Shown piece after piece: positions 21,828 through 50,744 of a stretch of 64,000 nt of DNA (the first letter of the stretch is position 1; each line of letters begins with the position of its first letter). The notes beneath the pieces are model-generated. The model worked only from the letters and a program-made list of their open reading frames with translations. It made no database searches and was not told where the DNA came from. Source of the DNA: Thermogemmata fonticola (GTDB taxonomy: Bacteria; Planctomycetota; Planctomycetia; Gemmatales; Gemmataceae); NCBI RefSeq assembly GCF_013694095.1, contig NZ_JACEFB010000003.1, positions 248,001 through 312,000 of the forward strand. The letters run 5' to 3'. Both the position numbers and the translations under genes were made by a program.

Positions 21828-21930
21828 GGGTGTAACTAGATTCTCTGGGGGTGGGGGCTGAACCCGCGAGGTGTTTCCCCAGACTAGCGGACTACCCGGC
21901 AGGGAACCCCCAGAAAATCTGGTTGCACCC
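21828..21930 (-). mobile_element. MITE-like element, copy 1
   Basis: 103 bp, no coding capacity. The left terminal inverted repeat (21828-21852, starts GGGTGTAAC) matches the right one (21906-21930, ends GTTGCACCC when read on the plus strand) over 25 bp with three mismatches. The 53-bp interior is about 90 percent identical to the reverse complement of the interior of the copy at 49534-49637. No clear target duplication flanks this copy, so it may be older or its flanks may have changed. The strand is arbitrary and set relative to copy 2. Confidence 0.88.
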
Positions 21931-21970
21931 ACCCGACCGGCAAGGTGGAATTGCTCTCGACAATTCTGCT

Positions 21971-22063
21971 GGATTCCCGTAGTCTGGGGGAGGTTCCGGA
22001 AGCAGGACTGCAAATTGCGGCAGTTCCGCTTACGAAGCGGCGGCCTTTGCCTCACGGGAATCC
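21971..22063. repeat. Inverted 10-mers spanning 93 bp
   Basis: GGATTCCCGT at 21971-21980 and its exact reverse complement ACGGGAATCC at 22054-22063. Further partial complementarity lies between them (AGCAGGACTGC region against GCGGCAGTTCCGC). It could fold as a long imperfect hairpin or be the remnant of a second small inverted-repeat element beside MITE copy 1. Confidence 0.5.
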
Positions 22064-49112: not shown

Positions 49113-49394
49113 ATGCTCGTGCTCACCCGTCGTCAAGGCGAGTCGATTGTAATCGGCAATGACATCAAAATCACTGTGGTGAGCTTAGGACCCGGGCGGG
49201 TAAAGCTAGGGATCGAAGCTCCGCCTCAAGTCCGAGTAGATCGGGAGGAAATCCACGCCCGGATCGTGCAGGAACAATCCGCGGATGTGTTGGCGGCGGT
49301 TGCTTCGGAAGCGACAGAAGATGGGAATGGTCCGAACACCTCCCAGCTCAGCAAGACGGAAGTTTTTTCGTCAGTCCCCCGGAAGCCCCGCTGA
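49113..49394 (+). CDS. csrA: Carbon storage regulator CsrA
   Basis: 93 residues. CsrA is an RNA-binding dimer that binds GGA motifs in leaders and changes translation or stability of target mRNAs. The core is intact: [51 protein letters not shown]. The tail from about residue 52 on is longer than in typical 61 to 75-residue CsrA and ends in basic RKPR. AGGAGGG precedes the ATG. In planctomycetes CsrA has been linked to central regulation, but its targets here are not known; its own leader has several GGA motifs. Confidence 0.95.
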
Positions 49395-49525: not shown

Positions 49526-49645
49526 AATACCCAGGGTGTAACTAGATTCTCTGGGGGTTCTCTGCCGGGCAGCTCTGCTAGTCTGGGGAAACACCTCGCG
49601 GGTTCAGCCCCCACCCCCAGAAAATCTGGTTACACCCAATACCCA
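49526..49645. repeat. 8-bp target-site duplication flanking the mobile element
   Basis: AATACCCA at 49526-49533 and AATACCCA at 49638-49645 directly border the element. A ninth base (G) also matches on the right sides of both, so the duplication is 8 bp, or 9 bp if one terminal base is shared. Confidence 0.88.
49534..49637 (+). mobile_element. MITE-like element, copy 2, with target duplication
   Basis: 104 bp with no coding capacity. The terminal inverted repeats begin GGGTGTAAC and extend 25 bp (49534-49558 and 49613-49637) with two mismatches. The 54-bp interior is the reverse complement of that in copy 1 at about 90 percent identity. The perfect 8-bp flanking duplication shows it was inserted by a transposase supplied in trans. 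The parent transposase is not in the window; its family cannot be named from this alone. Confidence 0.92.
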
Positions 49646-49796
49646 GCGGCGGAGCAATTCGGCTTGCGATCCTGCAAGCCCCACGCTATCTCGCAAAAGG
49701 TCCAGGCTATTTCCCAAACGCCCTGAAGGGAGCTTAGCCTGGTCGCGGATTGGAAGCACCGAGGCGCAGGTCGAGGAATGACCGGGGAGGGGGACG

Positions 49797-50744
49797 GTGC
49801 CACGCTGGACGATCCTGGGGATTGGCGGTATTTGGCCCCTACTGAGCGCCGGTTGTGCCCATACTTGGGACGCCCTAACCAGCCAGCGCTTTCGGGACGC
49901 TCCCTTCGCCACCTTACGGCATCTGATCCAACCGGAAGACTCTGTGGCGGTGCTTTTAGCGGATCCACCCCGAAGCGGGGATGAGCGCGCGTCTGCTTGG
50001 CAGCGCCTGAGTGCGGAACGGTTCCACCAGTGTGCTCCGGAGCAACAGGTGCAGTTATGGCACATGCTGCAACACGACGCCACGCGGGAAGCTAGCCCCT
50101 GGGTACGCCTCTCGGCGATTCAGGCTCTGGGCCGGCTCCCTGACCCCCGCACGGTGGGCGTGCTCATCACAGCTTACCACCAGGCGGATGGCTATCCGGA
50201 AGGCTATCTCCCTCCGACGACCGCATCCCCTCACAACTCTGCAGTAAACACTGGGACCAGCGCGGGGCGCTTGCCGACCCGTGTGGGACATGATCCGCTG
50301 TTGGCCCTCAGCGGCCCCCGTGGCTTTCCCCCAGAATGGAGCAATGCGATCCGCTGTCGGGCGCTGGAAGCTCTGGGACAGACTCAAAGTGTGGAGGCTG
50401 TCCGATTCCTCGCTGCTGTCGCAGGGGCCTATCCAGACAACGCTGTCCCGGGAGCAGATGAGCGCGATGTGCGCTTGGCCGCCATCCGGGCCTTATCCCG
50501 CTGCCGACAACCCGAAGCGGTCGAGGCGTTGTTCCAAGTGCTCAAAAACAATACGCATTCCACCGATACCGCTCTTCTCCATCGCACCCATGAAGGGCTG
50601 GTCCGGCTGACCGGGCGGGATTTGCCTCCTGATCCTCAAAGCTGGCAAGAGGTTCTGCAAGCCGGTGTGACACTCGCTCCAGAGCCGGCTTGGTGGGAGG
50701 AAGCTGCTGACAAAGTCGTTCAAGCCGTCCGCTGGCTCCGCTAA
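49797..50744 (+). CDS. HEAT-repeat-like lipoprotein
   Basis: 315 residues. The GTG at 49797 follows GGGGAGGGGG and gives a lipoprotein signal ending in LLSAGC (Cys20). The rest has HEAT-like helical pairs: ASPWVRLSAIQALGRLPDPRTVGVLITAYHQ, IRCRALEALGQTQSVEAVRFLAAVA, DVRLAAIRALSRCRQPEAVEALFQVLK. A low-complexity insertion at about 140-180 breaks the series. It is probably a membrane-attached scaffold or binding protein. The next gene is convergent and 78 nt away. Confidence 0.8.
   Translation: MPRWTILGIGGIWPLLSAGCAHTWDALTSQRFRDAPFATLRHLIQPEDSVAVLLADPPRSGDERASAWQRLSAERFHQCAPEQQVQLWHMLQHDATREASPWVRLSAIQALGRLPDPRTVGVLITAYHQADGYPEGYLPPTTASPHNSAVNTGTSAGRLPTRVGHDPLLALSGPRGFPPEWSNAIRCRALEALGQTQSVEAVRFLAAVAGAYPDNAVPGADERDVRLAAIRALSRCRQPEAVEALFQVLKNNTHSTDTALLHRTHEGLVRLTGRDLPPDPQSWQEVLQAGVTLAPEPAWWEEAADKVVQAVRWLR

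Follow-up and report, generated by a model that had tools for sequence, protein, structure and literature searches.

A MITE family of Thermogemmata fonticola with ISKra4-type ends lies at a fixed distance from promoter-like sequences

MITEs in the genome of Thermogemmata fonticola, together with those of several independent families, show a fixed spacing to promoter-like sequence: the -35 box begins 25-27 bp from the element end. This insertion rule is a promoter-locked variant within the known ISKra4/p-MULT4 kind of element. The copy with which the analysis is concerned lies in the window (that is, the whole stretch of 64,000 nucleotides that was analysed), and the host genome is a Gemmataceae draft of 4.8 Mb in 61 contigs, 97% complete. 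The fixed promoter spacing, the tandem copies and a 172-bp sister form of the element are all additional to the original prediction, which had been made from the sequence of the window.

That prediction had described a non-coding element of 104 bp with 25-bp inverted ends, a perfect 8-bp target duplication and a second copy in the window, and all of these were found again. The 25-nt arms of the element at 49534-49637 are complementary at 23 of 25 positions (92%), there is no gene within it, and the octamer AATACCCA stands on both sides. The direct repeat around the element appears longer, CCAATACCCAG, because the element's own CCC/GGG adjoins AATACCCA. The element sits in the spacer between csrA and a gene for a HEAT-repeat protein. 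Towards the latter lies a promoter-like site which, with 7 of 12 consensus matches, is weak alone and stands at the promoter offset of the family. The second copy, of 103 bp, has flanks that do not match, and no target duplication is visible. Furthermore, the end pattern of the family occurs four times in the window, where 0.1 occurrences are expected from shuffles. The features are collected in Table 1.

Table 1. Features of the window and the two 172-bp variants elsewhere in the host genome (coordinates without a contig name refer to the window).
Feature	Coordinates	Strand	Remarks
csrA, left neighbour of the element	49113-49394	+	Pfam PF02599
Left target-site duplication	49526-49533	.	AATACCCA; same octamer at both flanks
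104-bp MITE copy	49534-49637	+	29 near-full copies in the genome; other copies 88-96% identical to this one
Left terminal inverted repeat	49534-49558	+	bears the family's usual right-end sequence, GGGTGTAACTAGATTCTCTGGGGG
Right terminal inverted repeat	49613-49637	-	complementary arm
Right target-site duplication	49638-49645	.	AATACCCA; same octamer at both flanks
Promoter-like site TTGCGA-N17-TATCTC	49664-49692	+	-35 begins 26 bp past the element end; directed toward the HEAT-repeat gene
HEAT-repeat protein gene	49797-50744	+	Pfam PF13646/PF03130; downstream of the element's promoter-facing end
Second MITE copy, 103 bp	21828-21930	-	sequence match to the element
Promoter-like site TCGACA-N17-TAGTCT	21957-21985	+	8/12 matches; -35 26 bp from the end of the second copy
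172-bp variant	C2:146668-146839		ends as in the 104-mer
172-bp variant	C18:50750-50921		ends as in the 104-mer

Further copies are plentiful in the host genome. There are 29 near-full 104-mers with a mean pairwise identity of 93.9%, one of which equals the consensus, and two 172-bp elements that combine the ends of the 104-mer with a different core. Target duplications of 8-9 bp flank 12 of the 29 104-mers, a few of them counted after a shift of 1-3 bases at one of the ends (clear examples are TGCCACTC, TGCTGTTC, TGCCGCTG, CGAGCGGC and CAAGATCA), and both 172-mers (GTCAGGTC, with one extra base on the right side, and GAGCCAGT); at 17 of the 29 104-mers we did not see a clear duplication. Most copies are intergenic. 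Three apparent in-frame insertions (C15:32263, C5:228162 and C17:15805) are upstream of the likely true starts and were rejected as gene disruptions. Being short and non-coding, with inverted ends and 8-bp duplications at many independent sites and about 30 copies, the element is a MITE, and it shares these traits with ordinary bacterial MITEs. It had been read as a mobilised miniature element; the usual marks of a MITE agree with this, and the mobilisation itself we infer.

In all copies, the two ends are identical to each other at 19-22 of 24 positions. The core is less variable than the ends, of which two or three types recur in varied combinations. In the window copy, the left end is identical to the usual right end of the family, which suggests an exchange between ends.

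Outside the host, we were not able to find the 104-mer in 40 relatives, the same-genus genome included (where one 26-base match is not a copy), or in plasmids, and about 390 genomes of the phylum gave no match to the 104-mer or to a related element. The genes for csrA and the HEAT-repeat protein are adjacent in the same-genus genome, too, and the spacer between them is without the element, so the element is not a feature of this locus in all relatives. Note that this spacer is too diverged to align, and hence an empty site cannot be shown base for base. At a third locus (C2:71317), the flanking genes are split between two contigs of the same-genus genome.

Next, we asked which transposase the ends point to. 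The original prediction could not assign them to a known family; judged by their sequence, they are those of the ISKra4/p-MULT4 group of Mutator-like elements. The exact end pattern was matched at three places when 85,000 species genomes were searched, about one match being expected by chance (by arithmetic from the size of the collection). The match on a Micrococcales contig looks like such a chance match, with the inverted partner end absent nearby, and was rejected. In Gemmata sp. IIL30, on the other hand, the match adjoins a transposase gene, and GGGTGTAACCAAATTCTCTGG bounds an ISKra4-family IS there. The second copy in that genome is a complete IS of 1453 bp with the ends GGGTGTATCCAAATTCTCTGG and GGGTGTAACTAACTTCTCTGG. 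The MITE ends agree with those of the IIL30 ISs at 21 of 21 positions (one end) and at 19-20 of 21. For the transposase of the 1453-bp IS, the match is to the ISKra4 family (NF033572, E 2e-51, which is below the curated cut-off). This IS has two reading frames that overlap, with the run A-AAA-AAG lying between the two. Overlapping frames with a slippery run of this type are also reported for the ISMich2 group of p-MULT4, for which promoter targeting is not reported; the survey gives it for the ISKra4 group only (PMC3942029).

The host genome carries ISKra4-family elements of its own. The resident IS at C7:80597-82438 has a 549-aa frame (ISKra4-like, E 2e-44) and an 8-bp duplication, GTCGGAGA, at both sides, and two more copies, on C14 and C18, are truncated by the ends of their contigs. 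At 17 of 21 positions, the resident ends, GG(G)TCTGACCAGAAATTCTGG, are the same as the best end of the MITE. A full IS sharing the ends of the MITE, one of the checks proposed originally, thus exists in Gemmata sp. IIL30; an autonomous IS with exactly these ends was not found in the host assembly, where the resident IS differs at 4 of 21 end positions and two of the three resident copies are incomplete. A 172-bp element of a further Gemmataceae genome (G051), with the 9-bp duplication AAACAAGTG, has like ends as well. Elements of the p-MULT type have ends of 18-39 bp with a terminal C and duplications of 8-9 bp (PMC3942029), and the MITE has all of these traits. From the sequences, the transposase that moves it is apparently of the ISKra4 type, that is, Mutator-like. 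As a side observation, the resident transposase at L081:2623-4272 carries a repetitive insert rich in Ala, Thr and Ser in the middle of the protein (TATPANASTVTATPANAS...).

To quantify the position of promoters, we scored matches to TTGACA-N16-18-TATAAT in 54 flanks of 30 insertions, with tandem neighbours removed; the scores are consensus matches and not mapped starts. At offset 26, the mean score exceeds that at other offsets by 8.7 s.d. A sigma70-like promoter reading away from the element, with the -35 starting 25-27 bp from the end and at least 7 of 12 matches, accompanies 20 of the 30 insertions, compared with 0-6 of 30 for control triplets (binomial probability about 4e-14 at the control rate of 0.095). 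With a stricter 8 of 12 matches, 12 insertions remain versus 0-2 in the controls. At about 10 of the 30 insertions we see no promoter-like match at 25-27 bp. The promoter-facing sides lead into a correctly directed gene in 16 of 22 cases, and the other sides in 16 of 32.

Since the 26-bp offset came from scanning 80 offsets in the host data, it was checked on other sets. Of nine MITEs from G060, which is likewise a Gemmataceae genome, and the G051 element, 9 of 10 have a promoter-like site at 25-27 bp (controls 0-3). The G060 family has a different core, a length of 125-196 bp, the ends GGGTGTAACCAAGTTTTCTGG / GGGTGCATCCAGTTTTTCTTGG and mostly clear duplications of 8-9 bp. Furthermore, the C14 and C18 copies of the resident ISKra4-family IS each have a promoter-like site with 10 of 12 matches, at 25-26 bp. 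The IS copies of Gemmata sp. IIL30, which are few, have promoter-like sites at 17-19 bp and not at 26, which is closer to the published ISKra4-group distance of about 16 bp.

Potentially, the transposase could read a DNA motif directly (TTGAC about 26 bp away), without RNA polymerase. When position-enriched words were collected with no motif supplied, the strongest ones were indeed in the -35 region (CTTG at 25 and TTGAC at 26), next to CTCT at 23. However, the -10-like word TAT is enriched as well, at 49, and in flanks picked by their -35 alone the -10 match is highest with a 17-bp spacer (2.18 of 6, compared with about 1.35). The enriched words at 23-26 and 49 are arranged as in a sigma70 promoter whose spacer is 17 bp, and we consider direct reading of the motif unlikely. 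A second explanation is survival rather than targeting, meaning that intergenic insertions are tolerated best and those upstream of promoters persist. While the intergenic position of most copies is expected from selection alone, such selection would not set a distance to within 1-2 bp; the enrichment is restricted to 25-27 bp, both independent MITE families and the resident IS copies show it again, and we give survival very little credence. Finally, that the element is a REP/REPIN- or ERIC-like structural repeat, retained for a role as an RNA or DNA hairpin, is hardly credible: its strong single-strand fold (z -5.8) and intergenic location would fit, but the fold is due to the inverted ends alone, the element has target duplications and IS-like ends and is absent from the orthologous spacer, and its sole Rfam match is far below threshold, so that no known RNA family was accepted for it.

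The preferred reading, which we hold to be very probable, is that of a non-autonomous MITE mobilised in trans by an ISKra4-family transposase (p-MULT4, Mutator-like DDE) with its target set by a sigma70-type promoter. The transposase would bind the ends of about 21-25 bp (GGGTGYAACCARATTYTCTGG) and excise or copy the element, probably via a circle in which a few flanking bases join the ends. Insertion would then occur by a staggered cut of 8 bp, sometimes 9 bp. A sigma70-type promoter would set the target such that the element end comes to lie 25-27 bp before the -35, or about -61 from the expected transcription start, and either end of the near-symmetrical element could face the promoter. The simplest route to a fixed register would be a contact of the transposase with the promoter-bound RNA polymerase holoenzyme. 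Trans-mobilisation, the circle and the polymerase contact are all three what we infer from sequence comparison.

According to Guerillot et al. (2014, PMC3942029), insertion sites upstream of sigmaA promoters are a property of some elements of the ISKra4 group, and the distance from the end to the -35 is about 16 bp; this figure follows the definition of that paper, is measured from the IR end and was taken as given. Where the ends are symmetrical, the promoter can be on either side (PMC3942029). The members of this group (ISKra2, 4, 5 and 6, ISCasp2, ISLfe1 and others) share with the MITE the duplications of 8-9 bp (PMC3942029), near-symmetrical inverted ends with a terminal C, and a position upstream of sigmaA-type promoters, which may be on either side. 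They differ in that they encode a transposase and have the -35 about 16 bp (range 13-17) from the end, whereas the MITE is non-coding and has it farther out by about one helical turn, at 25-27 bp. Among the host insertions, we were not able to find any enrichment of promoters at 13-17 bp from the MITE ends, the published range. TnGBS and ISLre2 (p-MULT3) also insert upstream of -35 boxes with a constant spacing; unlike the MITE, they are oriented (one end only), have a spacing of 15-17 bp and belong to another transposase family. In the open-licence literature, we found no report that any bacterial MITE family keeps a fixed distance from promoters. With somewhat less confidence than for the reading as a whole, though still on balance, we favour the view that a Gemmataceae lineage of ISKra4 type docks on promoter-bound polymerase one helical turn upstream of the published register (26 vs 16 bp) and that the MITEs may thereby be placed at about -61 of many genes.

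To our knowledge, very few bacterial transposons choose their sites by reading promoters, and how they do so is unproven. A substrate of 104 bp, with symmetrical ends, a register about one DNA turn off the published one and independent families that follow the same rule, makes polymerase docking testable: if it is true, the register should depend on which transposase acts and should turn with the helix. Promoters are poorly mapped in this phylum, and each MITE copy also points to a likely one; if the docking reading is true, the positions of the MITEs could serve as a map of active promoters.

On C10, C24 and C6, two MITE copies follow each other in head-to-tail orientation, separated by 7-8 bases, and on C17 a copy abuts a partial copy across its duplication. 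In p-MULT circular forms, 6-10 flanking bases separate the ends (PMC3942029), and by analogy the tandem copies with their 7-8-bp spacers could derive from circle or dimer intermediates. For the C6 tandem, insertion beside an older copy or unequal exchange explains the arrangement as well, and the outer flanks of the C10 tandem are without a duplication. Contig C24 starts within a head-to-tail array (C24:1-225) with CAGGCGGA spacers; since it begins inside the array, more copies may have been collapsed at the contig break.

Two pairs of loci have further repeats beside the element. At C15:50769 and C21:11777 the MITEs adjoin another dispersed repeat (translation ...GGEGGEPILAA.FEQDACHR...). At C18:68516 and C24:122, about 22 identical bases beside the element are common to both loci (CGCTCAGCTTGGTGGTTTGAGT), and some 45 bases outward of these there is a GGGTGTAAC-like end, as though a further short repeat were present.
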